Assembly: GCF_012317585.1 (NCBI RefSeq)
Contig: NZ_CP042909.1
Location: 434,001-498,000 of the forward strand
Source: Thermosulfurimonas marina
GTDB taxonomy: Bacteria > Desulfobacterota > Thermodesulfobacteria > Thermodesulfobacteriales > Thermodesulfobacteriaceae
Direction: 5' to 3'
DNA length: 64,000 bases
Part shown: one piece after another, positions 4,840-18,038 of the stretch
Layout: every line of letters begins with the position of its first letter
Numbering within the stretch: the stretch's first letter is position 1
Program-made: the position numbers and the translations under genes
The notes under the pieces: model-generated
What the model saw: only the letters and a program-made list of their open reading frames with translations
Database searches by the model: none
What the model was told of the DNA's origin: nothing

Positions 4840-5010
4840 CTAGCAACCGCAGCTGCGCCGAGCGAATTCCCGGAAGGATTCGATCCGCACCGTCTTGCGC
4901 TCGGAAAATTCCTGCTGCTTTCCGGCATTCCAGTTCTGCACCGGCCGGAAATAGCCCACCACCCGGCTATAAATCTCGCAGGGCACCGCCTTAACCTTAC
5001 ACCTTTTCAT
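4840..5010 (-). CDS. nrdD: Detached C-terminal glycyl-radical domain of class III ribonucleotide reductase
   Basis: A 56-residue ORF (start MKRCKVKAVPCEIY) containing SRVVGYFRPVQNWNAGK, the glycyl-radical motif found at the C-terminus of NrdD; Gly19 is the predicted radical residue. The large nrdD ORF stops 14 bases inside this ORF and lacks the motif, so both products are needed for an active reductase. A strong AGGAGGTG lies four bases upstream of the ATG, supporting independent initiation. Two cysteines near the start and CGC at the end may add metal ligands. Short stand-alone NrdD C-terminal proteins are, to my knowledge, annotated in some anaerobes, so this may be a stable split and not damage. 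Confidence 0.88.
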   Translation of the reverse strand: MKRCKVKAVPCEIYSRVVGYFRPVQNWNAGKQQEFSERKTVRIESFREFARRSCGC

Positions 5011-8000
5011 ACTGCACCTCCTCGGTTCGATTTTCGGACTCCCCGGAGGGCTCTACCAGCCGGTAGGCCTCCGGAGGGAGCCCGCGTAGGGCCTCCAGAG
5101 CGAGTTCCAACTCCCGCCCGTAGCGGGCCAGTTCCTCCTCGCTGTGGGGATAGGGGCAAATCTCGTGTTTTCCCGGAAGGTAGCCGTGCACCGGGCAGAC
5201 GGAAAAAGTGGGGGTAATGGAAAAGTAGGGGAGACGGAAGTGGGTGACCACCGCCCGCACCAACTCCTTGACCATGCGCGTGTCCGGGATCTCCTCCCCC
5301 ACAAAAAGATGCACCACCGTGCCTCCGGTAAAGAGTACCTGGAGGTCGTCCTGGTGAGAGAGGATCTCAAAGATGTCGTCGGTGTATCCCACCGGAAGAT
5401 GGACGGAATTGGTGTAATAAGGCACCTCGGGAGTGCCGGCGGTCTTGATCCGCGGAAATTTCTTCTTGTCCAGCCGGGCCAGCCGATAACTGGCCCCTTC
5501 GGCAGGCGTGGCCTCGAGATTGTAAAGATTGCCTGTTTCTTCCTGAAAATCGGCGAGCTTTTCCCGCATGAACTTCAAGACCTTGATGGCCCATTCCTTG
5601 CCCTCCGGATGATAGATGGGCACCCCCAGGAAGTTGAGACAGGCCTCGTTCATCCCCAGGATACCGATGGTGGAGAAGTGGTTGCGCCAGTACTGGCCGG
5701 TACATTCTTTGACCGGCTGGAGATAGACCCGGGAGTAAGGGTAAAGGCCCCGGGCGGTGAAGTCCTCGATGACCTTGCGTTTGATCTCCAGAGAGGTCTT
5801 GGCCAGTTCCATGAGCTCCGTGAGCCTTTCGAAAAACTCCTCCTCACAGGTGGAAAGATAGGCCAGTCGGGGCAGATTGATGGTGACCACCCCGATGGAG
5901 CCTGTAAGCGGTGAGGCCCCGAAAAGCCCTCCGCCCCGGCGTTCGAGCTCCCGGTTGTCTAGCCGCAGGCGGCAGCACATGGAGCGGGCGTCTTCAGGCC
6001 GCATGTCCGAATTCACGAAGTTGGCAAAGTAAGGAATGCCGTACTTGCGGGTCATCTCCCAAAGGGGCTCAAGCTCCGGATTTTCGTAATCGAAATCCCG
6101 GGTGATATTGTAAGTGGGTATAGGGAAGGTAAAGATCCGGCCCCGGGCGTCTCCGGCGAGCATCAGCTCACAAAAGGCCCGGTTGATGAGGTTCATCTCT
6201 TCCTGAAACTCGGCGTAAGTCTCTTCTCTCTCCTTCCCCCCGAGGAGCACCTTGTAGTTCCGCAGGGTCTCCGGACACTTGAGGTCAAAGGTGAGGTTGG
6301 TGAAGGGGGTGTTGTGGAAAAGGAGCCCTCCCAGTCCCCCCACAAAGTTTTCCGTCTCGCAGTCCACGGAAAGATCGTATTCCCATTCGTGGGGATAATC
6401 CTCTTCGGTAATTTCATAGACCGGTACCGCCACAAAGTCTCCCTTTTGAGGCCAGGGCTTCCGGGGCTCGGGATAGTAAAAGAGCCCGTAAACCCCGGTG
6501 CGGGGGTCTTTACGGGAAAGAACGAAGTGGTAGCCCAGACTGGCCAGCAGGAGCCCCACCCCGGCCAGGAGCCTCTTTGAGCGGGTGAAAAACCCGAATC
6601 GCCGATGTCCGGGATCGTAATATCCGTCTCCTTCTATCAAGGCCCCTAAAAACTTCTCCTTCAGCGAAGGGGCCAGATCGAAAACCCAGGAGGGCAGACG
6701 CTTGTCTTGGGAGGAAAAGCCCGCGGTATGCTTCATGAGAAAAGAAAGGAGGCCCCGAATACGCAGGACCTTGACGCGGGTCTCGGTCTTTTGTCCGGTC
6801 TTGGAGGACCAGCCCTGCTCCTCGGTCTCTCCGCTCAGTATTCCTAAAACCTCGGCCGCCTGCCTGAGGGGCTCCGCAAAGGCCTCCGCCTGAGACAGGC
6901 ATACGTTGGATCCGGAGGCCTTGCCCTCGGTGATATAGAAGGCCAGAAGGGTCAGGAAGGCCTCCAGACGGGCCCCGGATAGCTTCCGGGGTTCGCGGGC
7001 TTCCGGATAGTTGCGAAGGCTGAAGGAGACCTCCGGGTCCTCCAGATCCCCGTGACGCCACCAGAAATTGAAGGGCACACACCGCTTCCTCCGCCATTCA
7101 TAGTACCGGGTGCGATCCCGAAAGCCCAGCTCATAGACGGCCTGTTTCAAGGAAAGGCCCTTGGCCCGGAGACGTTCCTCCAGGCGCCGAAACCCCTCCT
7201 CGGTAAGATGGACATAGACGCGAGAGCGGGCCTCGCAGGGAAGATCGGCGATGATCTCGGCCAGATCCAGTTCGGTAAGGTTGCGAAAAACCTCCGAGGG
7301 GACTCTGGCCAGGGCCACCACGTGATTTCCCCTTCCGAGGCGGGCGTTGGGACCGGTGGGACGGAGCTCCGCAGGCTTTACCGGGCGAATCCCCCCTTGG
7401 TCACTAAAGGCAAAGAGGGAATGGGCCGGAGAAATGAGGGTCTCGCCGCGGCCGGTGCGCACCCGCACAAAGCGCCCGTGGGGCACCCGATGACGCACCA
7501 GACCTTTGACTTTAAGCCAGGTAGCCCGCCCCTCCTTCCAGCCCAAAACCTCCAGATCTCCGTCTCCCGGCACCAGAAAGGAATCCCGGGAGGGCCGCCC
7601 GTAGCCGTCCACATTGGGAACCACCTGATGGGGGCGCTCCCGAAAGGCCTCGTCCACCAGCTCCCCGATGGGCAGGACCTCTATCTTCCCCCGCCGACGC
7701 ACGACCACCGGCTCCTCCCAGGCCAGAGACTGGAAGCCCACCCGGGTGGGCACATTGACATTGAAGATGAATTCCTGCAGGCACTGCTTGACCTCTTCGT
7801 AGGAGAGCCTATCGTAGCGCACAAAGGGGGCCAGCAGGGTGTCGAAGTTAGAGAAGGCCTGGGCCCCGGCGGCCTCCCCCTGCAGGGTGTAAAAGAAGTT
7901 TACGATCTGGCCCAAGGCGCTCCGAAAATGCTTGGGCGGGGCGCTTTCCACCTTTCCGGGCACCCCTCCGAAACCCCGCCGCAGGAGATCATAAAGATCC

Positions 8001-9799
8001 CACCCCACGCAGTTGTGGTTCCACATTCCGTTCACCACCAGGGTGCCGCTTTCCGTAGTAAGATCGTAGATAAACTCATCGGGAATCTCCACCGGATCGT
8101 TGTTTAGGACCTGGTGCCACTCATCCCTTCCCTCATCGTGCCAGGCCCGGGAGGAGGGCTGCGCCGCACGATATTTTTCCGAGGGAAGATCCAGGCCTTC
8201 CACCTTCCGGAAAGAGAGTCCATAGAGGGGGTACCTCTGGATTACCGTACGGCCCTCTATCTCCCGCCTCTGCCCCTGCCCTTCCAGGGCCCGATCCCGG
8301 GGAGTAAATCCCAGAAGGGAAAGCACCACCGCCACCTCCTCCAGCAAAGAACGGGAGGCCAGGCGCAGGGAAAGGGAGGTCCCGGAGGAGTCGACGCTTC
8401 CGTCTCCATCAAGGAGACCCCCCAGCACCCCTTTCACAAACTCCAGACTGTAGGTGAGGATCTCCCGGGGAAGCCCTTTGTGTCTGGCCCCGGGACGGAT
8501 TCCGAAGACCCGCTCAAAGACGAACCGCAGGAAGGGATTGCGCACCCGAAGTTCGAAAAACTTCCCTTTAGGGACGATGCACCCCCAGAAGCCCCGCTCC
8601 CGAAGGATACCGTTCAGACGCTCGAGAATCTCCGGCTCGCTCTGGACTACGGAAAGACAGCGGGGATGATCTTCTTCATAGCTGAGATAGCCTTCCGCAA
8701 GGACCATGCCCACGAAATAGCCGAAATCTGCATCCAGGGGCAAAAACCGAGGGGCAGAGAAACTCAGGGTGTGGATCAGCCCGTCTTCTTCCACCGGGAT
8801 TTCTAGATCCTCCAGAGGATAGCCATTGAAGTAAAGCCTTTCCCGATGGGGCCAGCCCAGCCGAAGGATCTCGGAAAGGAGATCCAACCTCTCCTTGGAA
8901 AAGAGCCTTTCCCCGGAGAGAAGACGGGAAAAATCCACCGTAAAAAGGGAATCCTCTTCGGAGACCTCGGAGGCTGGTTTTTCTCCCTTCTGGGTAATCA
9001 TGGGATGGTCGTCGGTGACCACCACGCTGCGGCCGCCCCGGTTTTTGAGAAAGCGCATAGGGCGGTGCCTCTTCTTTTTCACCACCCGGGTGACCCGGGT
9101 CCATCCTTCCCGGTCGAGCACCCAGAGATCCTCGGGCCTCTTGGCCCAGGCCTCATCCCGGGCCGAAAGGAGATATTCCTCCTCCGGAAGGAGATCATAG
9201 AGATCCTCCAGGGAGACCAGAAGAAGCCTCCCCCGGTAACGGGCCACCACCACCTCTTTCCCGTAATAAGTGTAAGGCCCAAGGATGCCCAGATCGTGGA
9301 TATGAAAGTCGCCCTCAAAGTGGGCCTCGCCCACCCGGGTCGGGTAAAGCTTGTTCAGCCAGTAGCGGGCCACCACCGAGGAAGAAATGTGGAAATTGAG
9401 CCCCTGGAGACTGTAATTCATGTTGGAGTTTTCCTGGACCCGCCAGTCCTGCCGGCCGAGATACTCCTCAATGAGATTCACTCCGTCGAGAAGGGCCTGG
9501 CCCAGCTCCCGTGCCTGACGGCGCTTTTCCCGGTAGAGGATGTAGGCCTTGGCCGCCTCGGAAAGCCCCTGTTCCATAAGGGTCTTTTCCACCAGGTCCT
9601 GGATCTGCTCCACATGGGGCACCCCTCCGTGCTTGAAAAACTGGCGGTAAAGCTGGACCGCTACCGCGTCCGCCACCCTTTCCGCCGCGGCCCGATCCTT
9701 CTGCCCCACGGCCCTCAGGGCCTTAAAGACCGCCCGCACAATCCGCCGGCGATCAAAGGGCTGAAACTTTCCATCCCTCTTACGAACCAGGGGCTCCAT
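4997..9799 (-). CDS. nrdD: Class III anaerobic ribonucleoside-triphosphate reductase, large part, with two inteins
   Basis: A 1600-residue precursor. Residues 1-90 form an ATP-cone allosteric domain, then come N-extein 1-176, intein 1 (177-596), middle extein 597-690, intein 2 (691-1163) and C-extein 1164-1600. Spliced length would be 707 residues, normal for NrdD apart from the missing tail. Conserved extein blocks are FHIHDLGILGPY/CVGWDL, NVPTRVGFQ/TPFTNLTFDL, SMCCRLRL and SIGVVTINLPRLAYLS. Cys597, directly after intein 1, corresponds to one of the active-site cysteines. A zinc-ribbon-like CPVHGYLPGKHEICP lies near the end, but the ORF stops at ...EEVQYEKV before the glycyl-radical motif, which the overlapping ORF at 4840-5010 supplies. 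A near-consensus promoter precedes it. Confidence 0.95.
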   Translation of the reverse strand: MEPLVRKRDGKFQPFDRRRIVRAVFKALRAVGQKDRAAAERVADAVAVQLYRQFFKHGGVPHVEQIQDLVEKTLMEQGLSEAAKAYILYREKRRQARELGQALLDGVNLIEEYLGRQDWRVQENSNMNYSLQGLNFHISSSVVARYWLNKLYPTRVGEAHFEGDFHIHDLGILGPYTYYGKEVVVARYRGRLLLVSLEDLYDLLPEEEYLLSARDEAWAKRPEDLWVLDREGWTRVTRVVKKKRHRPMRFLKNRGGRSVVVTDDHPMITQKGEKPASEVSEEDSLFTVDFSRLLSGERLFSKERLDLLSEILRLGWPHRERLYFNGYPLEDLEIPVEEDGLIHTLSFSAPRFLPLDADFGYFVGMVLAEGYLSYEEDHPRCLSVVQSEPEILERLNGILRERGFWGCIVPKGKFFELRVRNPFLRFVFERVFGIRPGARHKGLPREILTYSLEFVKGVLGGLLDGDGSVDSSGTSLSLRLASRSLLEEVAVVLSLLGFTPRDRALEGQGQRREIEGRTVIQRYPLYGLSFRKVEGLDLPSEKYRAAQPSSRAWHDEGRDEWHQVLNNDPVEIPDEFIYDLTTESGTLVVNGMWNHNCVGWDLYDLLRRGFGGVPGKVESAPPKHFRSALGQIVNFFYTLQGEAAGAQAFSNFDTLLAPFVRYDRLSYEEVKQCLQEFIFNVNVPTRVGFQSLAWEEPVVVRRRGKIEVLPIGELVDEAFRERPHQVVPNVDGYGRPSRDSFLVPGDGDLEVLGWKEGRATWLKVKGLVRHRVPHGRFVRVRTGRGETLISPAHSLFAFSDQGGIRPVKPAELRPTGPNARLGRGNHVVALARVPSEVFRNLTELDLAEIIADLPCEARSRVYVHLTEEGFRRLEERLRAKGLSLKQAVYELGFRDRTRYYEWRRKRCVPFNFWWRHGDLEDPEVSFSLRNYPEAREPRKLSGARLEAFLTLLAFYITEGKASGSNVCLSQAEAFAEPLRQAAEVLGILSGETEEQGWSSKTGQKTETRVKVLRIRGLLSFLMKHTAGFSSQDKRLPSWVFDLAPSLKEKFLGALIEGDGYYDPGHRRFGFFTRSKRLLAGVGLLLASLGYHFVLSRKDPRTGVYGLFYYPEPRKPWPQKGDFVAVPVYEITEEDYPHEWEYDLSVDCETENFVGGLGGLLFHNTPFTNLTFDLKCPETLRNYKVLLGGKEREETYAEFQEEMNLINRAFCELMLAGDARGRIFTFPIPTYNITRDFDYENPELEPLWEMTRKYGIPYFANFVNSDMRPEDARSMCCRLRLDNRELERRGGGLFGASPLTGSIGVVTINLPRLAYLSTCEEEFFERLTELMELAKTSLEIKRKVIEDFTARGLYPYSRVYLQPVKECTGQYWRNHFSTIGILGMNEACLNFLGVPIYHPEGKEWAIKVLKFMREKLADFQEETGNLYNLEATPAEGASYRLARLDKKKFPRIKTAGTPEVPYYTNSVHLPVGYTDDIFEILSHQDDLQVLFTGGTVVHLFVGEEIPDTRMVKELVRAVVTHFRLPYFSITPTFSVCPVHGYLPGKHEICPYPHSEEELARYGRELELALEALRGLPPEAYRLVEPSGESENRTEEVQYEKV
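5015..5022 (-). promoter_or_regulatory. Shine-Dalgarno inside nrdD 3' end
   Basis: AGGAGGTG lies four bases upstream of the ATG of the 56-residue glycyl-radical ORF, within the last codons of the large nrdD ORF. It decides the start of that ORF and argues for initiation or re-initiation over a ribosomal frameshift. Confidence 0.75.
6311..7729 (-). mobile_element. Intein 2 in NrdD with LAGLIDADG homing endonuclease
   Basis: A 473-residue insertion that splits the conserved RVGFQ/[ST]PFTN block. It begins with Ser (SLAWEEPVVVRRRGKIEVL), contains block B LISPAHSLF, endonuclease motifs LLAFYITEGKAS and FLGALIEGDGYYD, block F YDLSVDCETENFVGG, and ends LLFHN before Thr+1. This is a standard class 1 layout (Ser1, His-Asn, Thr+1). 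Both endonuclease acidic residues (Glu and Asp) are present, so homing activity is possible. It differs in sequence from intein 1, so the two were probably acquired separately. Confidence 0.9.
8012..9271 (-). mobile_element. Intein 1 in NrdD with LAGLIDADG homing endonuclease
   Basis: A 420-residue in-frame insertion between Tyr176 and catalytic Cys597 of NrdD. Splicing blocks are visible: B is VVVTDDHPMI (T..H), F is FIYDLTTESGTLVVNG, and the end is MWNHN followed by Cys+1. Two dodecapeptide endonuclease motifs, YFVGMVLAEGYLS and VLGGLLDGDGSVD, mark an active-looking DOD/LAGLIDADG enzyme. By family alignment the intein begins with Thr (TYYGKEVVVAR), not the usual Cys or Ser. Block F has Asp where class 3 inteins have Cys, so it is not class 3. 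Confidence 0.9.
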
Positions 9800-9826
9800 T
9801 CCTTCCTCCTCCCGGTTTTTCCCTCC

Positions 9827-13728: not shown

Positions 13729-13969
13729 GGTGAATCACTTTTTACAATGGAAGCCTTTCTTTGGCAAATCTAATGTCTTCCGATAAAAGTGGATTATAAA
13801 ATTTTGGAGGATTCCTTGAAGGGTTTGGGGCCGAAATTAGAGAATTTATGATTTATAAGATAAGAGCTATGGTGGAAATAATTTTTTCTATTTTTTTTGG
13901 AAATGCTATTACCTAAAGAGTAACCCCCGAAGGTTGTAAAGGTGTAATTTTTCTGGTTTGTATAGCGAA
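13729..13969. promoter_or_regulatory. AT-rich divergent spacer between torD-like and livG genes
   Basis: These 241 bases are much more AT-rich than the surroundings. On the minus strand TATAAT (13798-13793) with a poor TTCAAG at -35 (16-base spacing) could drive the chaperone operon. On the plus side no clear promoter or Shine-Dalgarno is seen before livG. A 22-codon ORF at 13847 has no ribosome binding site and is not called. There is no trace of the permease or binding-protein genes that normally precede livG. Confidence 0.4.
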
Positions 13970-14737
13970 ATGGGGCGCATCCTGGAAGTTCGAAATCTCT
14001 CCAAACGCTTCGGGGCCCTGTGGGCGGTGCGGGATCTTTCCTTCTCCGTGGAACGCGGCTCCCTCACCGCCCTCATCGGACCCAACGGCTCCGGAAAAAG
14101 CACCACTTTCAACCTCATCTGCGGATTTCTGTCTCCGGACCAAGGCGAGGTCCTCTTTGAGGGACATCCCCTCTCGGCTCTGCCCCCGGAAAACATTGCC
14201 CGCCTAGGTATAGCCCGCACCTTTCAGACCCCGCAAATCTTTGGACACCTCAGCGTGCTCGAAAACGTACTTCTGGCCATCTACCAGCGCCGCCGACCGG
14301 GGCTCTGGGCCTCGCTGGCTCGAACTCCGGGCTTTTTCCGGGAAGAAAAAAGGGCCCGGGAGGAGGCCTTCGGTTATCTTGAAAAATGTTCCCTGGCCGA
14401 GGAAGCCCGGAAATCGGCCCGGGATCTTCCCTTAGGAAAACTCCGTTATCTGGAATTGGCCCGGGCCCTGGCCCTGAGGCCCAAACTCCTGCTTCTAGAC
14501 GAGGTGGCTTCCGGACTCTCCCCCCGGGAAAAGGAAGATCTGGCCGCGACCTTAAAGGGCCTTCCCGCGGAAGGCATAACCCTTTTCTGGGTGGAACACG
14601 ATCTTCATCTCCTCATGGGCCTTGCCGAAAGGGTCATTGTGCTCCACCAGGGCACCAAAATCGCCGAAGGGGACCCGCACGCCATTCAACGGCATCCGGA
14701 GGTCATTCGGGTATACTTGGGGGAGGAGCTATGCTAG
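13970..14737 (+). CDS. livG: Branched-chain amino acid-type ABC transporter ATPase, LivG-like
   Basis: About 255 residues from ATG 13970 (MGRILEVRNLSKRFG); a TTG at 13958 is an alternative start. Walker A is GPNGSGKST, the signature region is LPLGKLRYLELARAL and Walker B is LLLLDEVASGLSP, as in the LivG subgroup with its degenerate signature. It would power import of branched-chain amino acids or related substrates such as amides or aromatic acids together with LivF. The livF start overlaps its stop (ATGCTAG). The usual livK, livH and livM partners are not upstream, where torD runs the other way, and not downstream either. Confidence 0.87.
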   Translation: MGRILEVRNLSKRFGALWAVRDLSFSVERGSLTALIGPNGSGKSTTFNLICGFLSPDQGEVLFEGHPLSALPPENIARLGIARTFQTPQIFGHLSVLENVLLAIYQRRRPGLWASLARTPGFFREEKRAREEAFGYLEKCSLAEEARKSARDLPLGKLRYLELARALALRPKLLLLDEVASGLSPREKEDLAATLKGLPAEGITLFWVEHDLHLLMGLAERVIVLHQGTKIAEGDPHAIQRHPEVIRVYLGEELC

Positions 14738-15465
14738 AGATCCGCAACCTCCACCTCTCCTACGGCAAGCTGGTGGTCCTGCGGGGGATCTCGCTCCATG
14801 TGGCCCCGGGAGAAATCGTCTGTCTTCTGGGAAGCAACGGAGCCGGAAAGACCAGCCTCCTCCTTACCATCATGGGGCTTAACCGGCCCTTAAAGGGGCA
14901 GATCCTCTTTGAGGGAGAGGATATCACCGGGGCCTCGCCCCAGTACCTGGTCCGAAAGGGGGTGGCCCTGGTCCCTGAGGGGCGCCAGATCTTCTATCCC
15001 CTCACCGTGGAAGAAAACCTAGAGCTCGGGGCCTATCATCGCTGGCGCCAGGAGGGGCGCAGGGCCGTTCAGGCCGATCTCGAAAGGGTCTATGCGCTCT
15101 TTCCCCGCCTCAAGGAGCGGCGCCGACAGAAGGCCGGAACCCTTTCCGGAGGGGAACAGCAGATGCTGGCCCTGGCCCGGGCCTTCATGGCCCGCCCCCG
15201 TCTTCTCCTCCTCGATGAACCCTCCCTGGGACTGGCCCCCAAGATTGTGGACCTCATCATGCGCACCATCGTGAGGCTCAACCAGGAGGGGCTTACGGTC
15301 CTTCTGGTAGAACAGAACGCCCGCAAGGCCCTGGAGATCGCCCACCGGGCCTATGTGCTTGAGACCGGACGCATCGTGCTTGAGGGTCCGGCCCGGGAGC
15401 TTCTTCACGACGAAGAGGTCAAACGGGCCTATTTGGGCAAGGACTACCGCGAATTCACCGCCTGA
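14731..15465 (+). CDS. livF: Branched-chain amino acid-type ABC transporter ATPase, LivF-like
   Basis: A 244-residue ATPase starting at ATG 14731 behind GGGAGGAG. Walker A is GSNGAGKTS, the signature is LSGGEQQMLALARAFM and Walker B is LLLLDEPSLGLAP, followed by the typical LivF region KIVDLIMRTIVRLNQEG and LLVEQNARKAL. It pairs with LivG, whose gene it overlaps by 7 bases, and is followed 9 bases later by a PaaK-like gene. In Proteobacteria such a cluster often serves uptake plus CoA activation of an organic acid, but here the permeases are missing from the window. Confidence 0.9.
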   Translation: MLEIRNLHLSYGKLVVLRGISLHVAPGEIVCLLGSNGAGKTSLLLTIMGLNRPLKGQILFEGEDITGASPQYLVRKGVALVPEGRQIFYPLTVEENLELGAYHRWRQEGRRAVQADLERVYALFPRLKERRRQKAGTLSGGEQQMLALARAFMARPRLLLLDEPSLGLAPKIVDLIMRTIVRLNQEGLTVLLVEQNARKALEIAHRAYVLETGRIVLEGPARELLHDEEVKRAYLGKDYREFTA

Positions 15466-15474
15466 GGTGAGGCC

Positions 15475-16695
15475 ATGGAACAGAAGGATCTGGAATATCT
15501 CTCCTTGGAAGACTGGAGACAGTGGCATATCGAGCTCCTTCAGGCCACACTAACCCGTCTTTACCAGCGAGTGCCCTTTTACCGGGAGAGCCTGGAGGCC
15601 GCCGGACTTCTTCCAGAAGACCTCGCCGTACCCGAGGATCTCTCGCGCTTTCCCCCCACCACCCGAAAAGACCTTGCCGAACATTACCCCTATGAACTCT
15701 TTGCCGTGCCCCTGAGAGAGATCGTGCGCCTACATGTTTTTCCCTGGCATCCTAATCCCATCGTCAAGGGCTATACCCGTCAGGATCTGGAGGCCCTGAG
15801 GGGGCTTACCGTGCGCTTTCTTTCGGCGGCGGGTCTCCGAAGCGACGATATCCTTTATATCGCCCTGGAGCCGGGGATGGCGGTCTGGATCGAGGACCTC
15901 AAGGAGGGGGCCGAGGTCCTGGGGGCCACGGTCATCCCCCCTTCGCCCCGCCGACCGGAGACCGACCTCCGGATCATGAAAGATTTTCGGGCCTCGGTCC
16001 TGGCCACCACCCCCTCTCTGGCCCGGAGATTTCTCCGGGTTTCGGAAAGGTTAGGACTGCCCCTTCCCCGGAGTCTGCGTCTTCTCCTTCTCCTGGGAGA
16101 GCCCGTCTCCCCTCGGGACCGCGCCCTTCTGGAGGAGGTCTTCGGGGTCCAAACCCTTGTGGCCTACGGAATTGCCGAAATTCTAGGGCCGGGGATGGCC
16201 TATGAATGTGAGAGGCGTCAGGGGTTGCATCTGGCCGCAGACCACCTCTATCCCGAAGTGGTGGACCCGGAGACCGGAAGGACCGCCCCGGAAGGGGAGC
16301 TCCTCCTCACCACCCTCCGGGTAAGGGCCAATCCCCTGCTGCGTTTCCGCACCGGGGACCGCGTGCGCCTCTTGCGGGAAAAATGCCCCTGCGGGCGCAC
16401 CACCCCGCGGCTGGAGATCCTTGAGCCGGGCTATGAAGAACGCTGGTCCTTCCGCGGAGTCAAGATCTACCGCCAGGCCCTGGAGGGTCTCCTCCGGGAG
16501 ACCTACGGACATTTACCGGAGTACCGCTTTCGGACGGCCGAAGATCCGGAGGAAGAGCCCCTGCTGGAAATCCGGATGAACGAAGACCTTTTCCGGCCGA
16601 GCATCGTGGCCCTTCATGAGGAGGCCCATCGCTTTGAACGGGCCTTTCGGGAATTCTTTGGGCTGCCCTGCCGGGTGAAGTGGGTAGAAGCCTAA
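15475..16695 (+). CDS. Phenylacetate-CoA ligase (PaaK)-like protein lacking the ATP-binding P-loop
   Basis: A 406-residue member of the PaaK group of adenylate-forming enzymes. Recognisable blocks are FPPTTRKDLAEHYPYELFAVP, YGIAEILGPGMAYEC, GLHLAADHLYPEVVDPETG, NPLLRFRTGDRV and CPCGRTTPRLEILEP. Where PaaK has the phosphate-binding SSGTTGKPT just before GYTR, this protein reads HVFPWHPNPIVKGYTR, and the later GR.DDM motif is also altered (EPGYEERWSFRG). The DNA at 15731-15780 supports this. It may therefore not adenylate anything. It follows livF by 9 bases with GAGGTGAG as binding site. Confidence 0.8.
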   Translation: MEQKDLEYLSLEDWRQWHIELLQATLTRLYQRVPFYRESLEAAGLLPEDLAVPEDLSRFPPTTRKDLAEHYPYELFAVPLREIVRLHVFPWHPNPIVKGYTRQDLEALRGLTVRFLSAAGLRSDDILYIALEPGMAVWIEDLKEGAEVLGATVIPPSPRRPETDLRIMKDFRASVLATTPSLARRFLRVSERLGLPLPRSLRLLLLLGEPVSPRDRALLEEVFGVQTLVAYGIAEILGPGMAYECERRQGLHLAADHLYPEVVDPETGRTAPEGELLLTTLRVRANPLLRFRTGDRVRLLREKCPCGRTTPRLEILEPGYEERWSFRGVKIYRQALEGLLRETYGHLPEYRFRTAEDPEEEPLLEIRMNEDLFRPSIVALHEEAHRFERAFREFFGLPCRVKWVEA

Positions 16696-18038
16696 GGCAG
16701 GGCCGAAAGGGGGCCCAGGATCCGGACCCTCACCCAGTGAGGGTCTAGCCACTCCAGCGGCTGAACAAAGACCCCCTGGACCAGGACCGAAAAATGTAAG
16801 TGATCTCCACCGGCCAGTCCCGTGGTGTCCGTATGGCCGATGGTCTGCCCGGCCTCCACCTCCTGGCCCACGGAGACCTCAATTCCTGCAAGATGGGCGT
16901 AAACGGTGTAGAGCCCCAGACCGTGGTCCAGGATTACCGTGTTGCCGTAAATGCCCAGATAGCCCGCAAAGACCACCTTTCCGGCGGCCGCCGCCGGCAC
17001 CTCCGCCCCGGCCACCGAGGCCAGGTCCAGCCCCAGATGCCAGGACTCGGAGACCTTGCGCCCCTTGTAGTAGTAGAGGCGATATTCCCCGAAATCCGAG
17101 CGCTTGGCTGCCCGCGGAAGGGCCCTAAGGGCCCCCTTAATGCGGAAGGGCTCCTGCGAGACCTGAGAAGTGATCTCGGCAATCTTTTGGTTGTTCCGCT
17201 GCCGCAGGGTCTCGTTCACCCAGACAAAGGTCTCAAGAAGGCTTCCCTTCTGGGCCTCGGGATAACGGCTCAAAAATTCGGGCATCTTGCGGGAAAGAAA
17301 GGCCTCACTTATCCGCAGGCGATAGACCGGATACTTCCGGCGCTGGTAGAAATAATTTACCGGGATCTCCAGACGGTTTCCGGCCTCGTCCTGGGCCAGG
17401 ACCACAAAGCGGGAAATACCCTTTTCGGTCACCGGAAGTCCCACCAGGGCCGCGTAGAGGTGATCCTTGACCGGATAGCCCCGGAAAAAGTGCTCGTTCA
17501 GGTAGACCCCGGTCCGGGCCACGGGTTCTCCCACCCGATAAAGCACCAGGGCCGAGCCCCCTCGGGCCAGATAGACCCGGGCCGAAAGGAGGGCCACCGC
17601 CGGCGGGGTAAGATCGAGCCGGGCCTTAAGGACCTTCTGCCGAAGATTTCCCCTAAAGGCCTGCTGCCAGGACCCATCCCGGGCCTGGACCACCAGCTCC
17701 ACCGGCCCTTCGGAAAGACCGACCTCAAGGGGCCTTACCGCAAACTCATAGACCTTTTCTTTTACCGGCGAGCCCTTCAAAAAAGAAACCGGGAAGGTCT
17801 CCTCCCTGAGGACCGCCGCGCGGTCCTTTTGTCTTAAAGCGATCCTTACCGAGCGCAGACCGGAACGGGGATCCCGCACCTCCACCCGGACTTTGAATTC
17901 CCGGCCGAGGAGTTCGGAAATACCGGAGATTTTCACCTCCGGAGGGCTGCTTTCGTAGCGATAAAAGAAGAGCCCTCCTCCGGCCAGCAACCCTCCCAGA
18001 AGCAGTAGCCAAAGCAAGGTCTTGAAGAATTTGCCCAT
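16692..18038 (-). CDS. M23 family metallopeptidase (peptidoglycan hydrolase), membrane-anchored
   Basis: A 448-residue protein with an N-terminal membrane helix (FKTLLWLLLLGGLLAGGGLFFY), about 280 residues of beta-rich immunoglobulin-like extracytoplasmic sequence, and a C-terminal LytM/M23 domain. The zinc motif is intact: HLGLD near residue 334, HGLGLYTVYAHL and GDHLHF near residue 417. It would cut peptidoglycan peptide cross-links in the periplasm; the long N-terminal part may regulate or localise it. Its 3' end overlaps the convergent PaaK-like gene by 4 bases. Confidence 0.9.
   Translation of the reverse strand: MGKFFKTLLWLLLLGGLLAGGGLFFYRYESSPPEVKISGISELLGREFKVRVEVRDPRSGLRSVRIALRQKDRAAVLREETFPVSFLKGSPVKEKVYEFAVRPLEVGLSEGPVELVVQARDGSWQQAFRGNLRQKVLKARLDLTPPAVALLSARVYLARGGSALVLYRVGEPVARTGVYLNEHFFRGYPVKDHLYAALVGLPVTEKGISRFVVLAQDEAGNRLEIPVNYFYQRRKYPVYRLRISEAFLSRKMPEFLSRYPEAQKGSLLETFVWVNETLRQRNNQKIAEITSQVSQEPFRIKGALRALPRAAKRSDFGEYRLYYYKGRKVSESWHLGLDLASVAGAEVPAAAAGKVVFAGYLGIYGNTVILDHGLGLYTVYAHLAGIEVSVGQEVEAGQTIGHTDTTGLAGGDHLHFSVLVQGVFVQPLEWLDPHWVRVRILGPLSALP

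Follow-up and report, generated by a model that had tools for sequence, protein, structure and literature searches.

A PaaK homologue without the P-loop and the A10 lysine is linked to LivF and LivG genes in Thermosulfurimonas marina and is a putative partner of a HAAT importer

The ANL enzymes are recognised by a series of named motifs, of which A3 is the ATP-binding P-loop, A4 belongs to the acid pocket, A5 carries the YG..E block, A7 provides the ribose-binding Asp, A8 forms the hinge and A10 bears the catalytic lysine of adenylation. The described proteins closest to the one reported here are the phenylacetate-CoA ligases (PaaK; TIGR02155), represented by PaaK1 and PaaK2 of Burkholderia cenocepacia (2y27, 2y4n and 2y4o). 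These resemble our protein in fold, in length, in the A5 block, in the ribose-binding Asp and in the GPG...GLH blocks, at 26-35% identity in structural alignments. Our protein differs from them in that the P-loop, A4, A8 and the A10 lysine are replaced or missing, and in that its gene is fixed behind LivF. A second point of comparison is the regulatory domains of ABC importers, such as that of MetN, which acts by trans-inhibition and is fused to the ATPase. Domains of this type resemble the role proposed below, namely the cytosolic sensing of an imported substrate that gates the ATPase, whereas our protein is a free-standing protein of ligase fold and its gating is a proposal. The CouPSTU system of Rhodopseudomonas palustris has a LivK-family binding protein related to the LivK of T. 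marina and, in the part of the report available, a link to aryl-CoA metabolism (PMC3610893). The same source gives nanomolar affinities of CouP for coumarate, caffeate and ferulate, and names 4-hydroxyphenylpyruvate as a further ligand. The available part shows no pseudo-ligase subunit, and the ligand residues of CouP differ in part from those of the T. marina LivK. Finally, the GECFINDER biosensors, as far as the accessible portion of their description goes, demonstrate that the ligand-coupled hinge motion of ANL proteins can be used as a sensor (PMC10590383); unlike our protein, they are engineered and their signal accompanies the adenylation reaction.

The window, that is, the whole 64,000-nucleotide stretch of T. 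marina DNA that was analysed, contains a PaaK homologue (hereafter the window gene and the window protein) directly behind genes for two Liv-type ABC ATPases. The features considered are listed below.

13958..14737, + strand: LivG-type ABC ATPase (Pfam ABC_tran and BCA_ABC_TP_C; NCBIfam LivG 239 bits, below the cut-off of 362)
14731..15465, + strand: LivF-type ABC ATPase (Pfam ABC_tran; NCBIfam LivF 269.7 bits, below the cut-off of 441)
15475..16695, + strand: PaaK homologue without the ATP-site elements, the main finding, 9 bases downstream of livF
15532..15558, + strand: codons 20-28, with E20, Q23 and R28, part of the signature of LivF/LivG-linked homologues
15727..15777, + strand: codons 85-101, replaced A3 P-loop, RLHVFPWHPNPIVKGYT, where PaaK1 (2y27) has RIHASSGTTGKPTVVGYT in the alignment
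15865..15897, + strand: codons 131-141, LEPGMAVWIED replacing the canonical PaaK YGYGLFTGGLG
16165..16179, + strand: codons 231-235, YGIAE, the A5 block (YG..E), kept
16348..16359, + strand: codons 292-295, RTGD, with Asp295 kept and Gly294 where PaaK has Arg
16426..16443, + strand: codons 318-323, PGYEER replacing the A8 hinge GRSDDM (GRxDD)
16672..16695, + strand: RVKWVEA and the stop, the C-terminus, which lacks the A10 segment and its catalytic lysine

The window gene starts with ATG, ends with TAA and encodes 406 aa with zero internal stops, in agreement with the intact reading frame of the original prediction. Upstream of it, the livG start was called as TTG, with an in-frame ATG at 13970, and the livF start overlaps the livG end by 7 bases. 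On the other side lies a convergent M23 peptidase gene (16692-18038, - strand), whose end overlaps that of the window gene by 4 bases and which many relatives within the order likewise have next to the orthologue. Elsewhere in the window, a 1600-aa frame (4997-9799, - strand) resembles, by eye, an anaerobic ribonucleotide reductase; the matching frames in two relatives (L042 and L043) are about 710 aa long, and the extra sequence resembles two inteins.

The sequence search returned PaaK1, PaaK2 and 4r1l as the closest solved structures. The PaaK family model TIGR02155 matched residues 7-356 of the window protein (2.8e-69) at 233.7 bits, under its cut-off of 646.3, and a PaaK of the same genome with both loop and lysine likewise stayed under that cut-off at 537.8 bits; the Pfam AMP-binding match of the window protein exceeded the Pfam cut-off. 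The alignment with PaaK1 bore out the predicted replacement of the P-loop at residues 85-101, where RLHVFPWHPNPIVKGYT is one residue shorter than the RIHASSGTTGKPTVVGYT of PaaK1. A reading of the full 406-aa frame revealed no SGTTG-like motif elsewhere, which leaves no functional P-loop at a shifted position visible in the sequence. The change in GR.DDM was also found as predicted, with PGYEER at residues 318-323. The A10 lysine, overlooked in the original prediction, is a second loss. Canonical PaaKs extend beyond the RVKWVEA end of the window protein with SEGKAxRVIDKR, which carries the adenylation lysine (GKAxRV), and the Pfam PaaK C-terminal domain (PF14535) scored 13.9 bits in the window protein against a cut-off of 25, whereas the canonical PaaK of the same genome reached 108.7. 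As read from these alignments, the proposed loss of the ATP-binding P-loop is supported and strengthened, and the losses exceed those first reported. With neither the ATP-phosphate loop nor the A10 lysine left, the window protein has, by the known chemistry of ANL enzymes, probably lost acyl-adenylate formation and with it catalysis.

The blocks flanking the loop had been described as kept, which holds in part. The GPG and GLH blocks and the Asp of RTGD remain, and the A5 Tyr and Glu and the A7 (ribose-binding) Asp are present in the window protein, but RTGD itself is not the usual PaaK form. Position 294 is R in 22 and K in 3 of the 25 PaaKs that were not seen behind LivF or LivG, and G in 56/56 members of the clade of the window protein (RTR to RTG). 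Within this clade, the acid-pocket (A4) motif YGYGLFTGG has become LxPG[ML]xxWxx[DE], with exceptions, and several positions are invariant across 55/55 members.

The AlphaFold model of the window protein, built with 7 sequences, had a moderate mean pLDDT of 75.9, and its best Foldseek match was PaaK1 (2y27, E 1.3e-31). In VIA-align, the top row was BT_0428 (Z 30.1, rmsd 3.8, 335 aligned), and PaaK2 (2y4o) was aligned with Z 29.8 and rmsd 4.0 over 344 residues. The window protein is thus predicted to have the PaaK / ANL fold. Residues 69-99, which include most of the replaced loop, had pLDDT values below 50, and the shape of the loop is unreadable from the model.

Two further PaaK homologues in the T. 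marina genome, at 33-36% identity, both retain loop and lysine; therefore, the losses are specific to the window gene. With E values of 1e-85 or lower, the gene was found in 17 of the 41 genomes of the order (T. marina included); the 16 copies from other genomes are 49-70% identical. In all 17 genomes LivF lies directly upstream and the P-loop is absent, so that the same substitution does recur in relatives with the same Liv context. A sequencing error or local oddity is ruled out by these orthologues. In place of the P-loop, members of the window's own family have FPWxPNP or LPWLPNP, and those of the sister family have FPG-PR-TP or a similar sequence; one copy, in G004, is cut short and has FPWWPNP. 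The 10 relatives in the sister family end in a short C-terminal vestige, G-x-K/R-[IV]-[IVL], with GKK in 4/10; these were scored as having lost the lysine, because they no longer show the G-K-A-x-R-V-I-D pattern and the position following G varies. In another genus of the family (g5; L135-L139), the gene after LivF encodes, in 5/5 genomes, a homologue whose loop is of the SGTTG, TGTTG or AGTTG type; one of these homologues (L137) is without the A10 lysine. The occurrence of intact homologues in the same slot suggests that the LivF slot predates the loss of catalysis.

The survey was extended to the phylum. A total of 395 Desulfobacterota genomes were searched by similarity to the window protein, and 70 matched at E 1e-78 or better. 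The locus or stretch was taken for each of the 91 listed matches, together with relatives and loci from other searches. With shorter copies excluded, this gave 129 distinct homologues of more than 370 aa, of which three without the tail were dropped and 126 were scored; the P-loop pattern was widened to take SGMTG, TGTTG and AGTTG (L177, L136 and L137). The analysis revealed that 101 of the 126 homologues follow LivF (85) or LivG (16, one of which, L125, belongs to the LivF-linked clade), and 75 of these 101 genes lie at most 60 bases from the ATPase gene. Both the P-loop and the A10 lysine were lost in 83 linked homologues and kept in 14, while two had lost the loop only (L161 and L165) and two the lysine only (L137 and L166). 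Under the strict loop pattern, the corresponding counts were 84 with both lost, 12 intact, four with loss of the loop only and one with loss of the lysine only. Loop and lysine were kept in 25/25 homologues that were not seen behind LivF or LivG, two of which (L170 and L129) were available with hardly any upstream sequence. Fifteen loop-less homologues were observed behind LivG (L107, L110, L113, L114, L141-L144, L146, L147, L149-L151, L154 and L059); the order LivF-LivG-PaaK is frequent among the LivG-followers, and several genomes carry both the LivF-linked and the LivG-linked kind. Outside Desulfobacterota, plasmids were searched and judged by identity alone: 116 records matched, all below 60% identity, and none exceeded 38.1% among the 60 matches listed.

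LivF-linked homologues with an intact loop (e.g. L169, L174 and L139) share the slot and a residue signature with the window protein, and differ from it by loops of the GTTG or GVTG type and by an A10 lysine that is kept in 14/16. Linked homologues with an intact P-loop are probably active ligases, as judged from their motifs. The signature is common to linked homologues, dead or intact (n = 101): E20 occurs in 101, Q23 in 100, R28 in 98, Y73 in 101 and R81 in about 96. The corresponding counts in the 25 other PaaKs are 8, 3, 12, 2 and 1. These residues may form a docking surface, or they may mark shared ancestry, since nearly all linked homologues lie on one side of the tree.

The trees were quick trees with SH-aLRT support only, and were built without the loop and tail columns. 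The P-loop state changed four times on the tree (six with the stricter motif), and the lysine state seven times. The tree counts are safer than Fisher p-values, which ignore relatedness, and an independent-pair test had 3 pairs, too few to reach significance. The tree alone cannot tell loss from gain, and the changes are read as losses because loop and lysine are, to our knowledge, general in the ANL superfamily. The window protein falls within a clade of 56 members, all without loop and lysine (SH-aLRT 99). Three more loop-less groups have 24, 3 and 2 members, and intact linked genes share a larger clade with the first and the last of these. Some rows of the group of 24 show a milder loop change (e.g. 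SSGTMANP and SSTGSPGNP), and L161 and L165 keep the A10 lysine, so some members may still bind ATP and the case for lost ATP binding is weaker in this group. These two rows, which have the loop SSGTSVNP and sit beside iorA, represent a possible halfway state.

These comparisons bear on whether the window protein is still a ligase, driven either by ATP, handled by an atypical loop and a different lysine, or by some other activated donor. The kept YG..E block, ribose-binding Asp and fold would fit such an enzyme, as would the linked homologues with intact P-loop and lysine and the two dead-loop rows that keep the lysine. The window's own family, however, has lost the P-loop, A8 and A10 together, and its loops and those of other subclades vary (FPWHPNP, FPGPRTP, LRSGQANP, APGTAGNP and SPGTTEKP) in a way unlike a new catalytic loop. 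We therefore consider continued ligase activity improbable.

Pairwise dN/dS of the gene was 0.025-0.218 in 9/12 pairs, with three saturated, and that of LivF was 0.020-0.099 in 8/10 pairs, with two saturated; these ratios are rough, as several dS values exceed 1. Such values, well below 1, and the uninterrupted frames of the gene in the 17 genomes of the order lead us to reject a pseudogene or debris. The original description of a conserved non-canonical homologue coupled to livF is upheld by the presence in 17/41 genomes of the order, by dN/dS of 0.025-0.22 and by the phylum-wide pattern. The same evidence, along with the invariant positions in 55/55 clade members, makes it highly improbable that the gene is a functionless, decaying passenger of the liv operon, even though catalytic motifs were eroded several times and the highest ratios (0.19-0.22) come from the pairs of the window gene with its closest relatives. 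Across the sequences compared, the gene is thus characterised by the loss of both ATP-site elements, orthology, purifying selection, operon linkage and repeated loss.

When LivF was searched across its own genome, the self match scored 521.9 bits and the next match 145.6 bits, at 39% identity. The single intact set of LivK, LivH and LivM is located at 338-341 kb, some 107 kb from the window gene, and no match to LivG or LivF was found beside it in the 19 kb stretch there. As the window LivF has no other close match and LivKHM has no adjacent LivG/F, the two loci likely make up one transporter. A deeper relative (G030) has LivK-H-M-G-F-PaaKx in a single run, and compared with this order the arrangement in T. 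marina resembles an operon that has been split. A second liv cluster in the T. marina genome (L086, 718-733.5 kb; 7060-9808, - strand) holds an intact LivK frame together with LivG, LivM and LivH as fragments, and is probably a decaying transporter.

A match to the PF02653 permease was present in 17/17 genomes of the order with the gene versus 6/24 without it (Fisher p 7e-7, a value that ignores relatedness). Five of the six gene-less PF02653 genomes belong to genus g5, in which a PaaK homologue with an SGTTG-, TGTTG- or AGTTG-type loop closes the liv operon. By its linkage to LivF/LivG and its co-occurrence with the permease, the gene is a putative accessory of a HAAT (Liv) importer. The protein might instead join a canonical PaaK in a mixed complex, as its dead partner or its activator, given the two paralogues with loop and lysine in its own genome and the 12/102 linked loci at which another PaaK with intact-looking motifs was seen. 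Those paralogues, however, lie hundreds of kilobases away, and the constant neighbour across lineages is LivF or LivG. Furthermore, a PaaK match occurs in 15 of the 18 order genomes without PF02653, and a window-type gene in 0 of them. A PaaK partnership in place of one with the transporter is consequently unlikely.

Hints at the substrate come from the distant locus. LivKHM is divergent from a gene pair matching IorA (above the cut-off) and IorB (just below the cut-off), and CouP is the fourth of 23 solved matches of the T. marina LivK. Of the CouP residues that bind the ring hydroxyl, read by eye, His309 is kept but Gln305 is replaced by Ser, so the case for aryl-acid transport is indirect. 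An iorA/iorB match occurs in the stretch examined at only 7/102 linked loci, though many of the stretches were short. The second PaaK, likewise seen at only 12/102 loci, is upstream of livK in 10/12, several of these loci being cut by the end of the stretch. The combination of IorAB, a CouP-like LivK and linked PaaKs hints at aryl-acid uptake by the transporter, which would feed PaaK and IOR.

The explanation that we favour, with a probability of roughly 0.6, is that the window protein is a pseudoenzyme without ATP loop and A10 lysine, acting as a cytosolic partner that gates LivG/LivF of a HAAT importer, most likely for an aryl acid. We infer the role with the transporter from linkage, co-occurrence and conservation, and the protein is probably a cytosolic sensor or gate. 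In this mechanism, the kept two-domain fold and the altered acid pocket would accommodate the aryl acid brought in by the importer, or a CoA or AMP derivative of it, and ligand binding would shift the relative position of the domains. Contact with LivF/LivG would then restrain or license transport, a feedback gating modelled on what regulatory domains do in other ABC importers. The ligand, the contact with LivF/LivG and the direction of regulation are all proposals. Binding of a CoA-ester or acid as a sensor or carrier, which was part of the original prediction, is plausible in these terms. Such binding would also suit a protein that takes up CoA-esters and carries, hands over or buffers the aryl-CoA product, with no contact to the transporter; the C-terminal domain still aligns over most of its length, and relatives of the same fold bind acyl-adenylates and CoA. 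As a simple hand-over function leaves the lock to LivF/LivG unexplained, we find it quite unlikely.

Regarding the origin of the pseudoenzyme, we offer the tentative scenario, possible yet less probable than its opposite, that activating ligases riding with an aryl-acid importer were turned about four times into dead sensing subunits gating LivGF, while a paralogue took the ligase role; these subunits would then form a widespread and so far undescribed class of transport regulator. Literature searches aimed at the window-type protein or at dead ANL proteins found no description of it.

The finding has consequences for the reading of genomes and for the study of this family. Window-type genes are probably annotated as phenylacetate-CoA ligases or AMP-binding proteins, and with a ligase annotation the activation step may be called present where a window-type copy cannot perform it. 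One operon slot holds a natural series of ligases, some intact and some dead, with which non-catalytic roles of ligases can be probed. The series further raises the question of whether a free-standing cytosolic sensor may gate an ABC importer of the large HAAT family.
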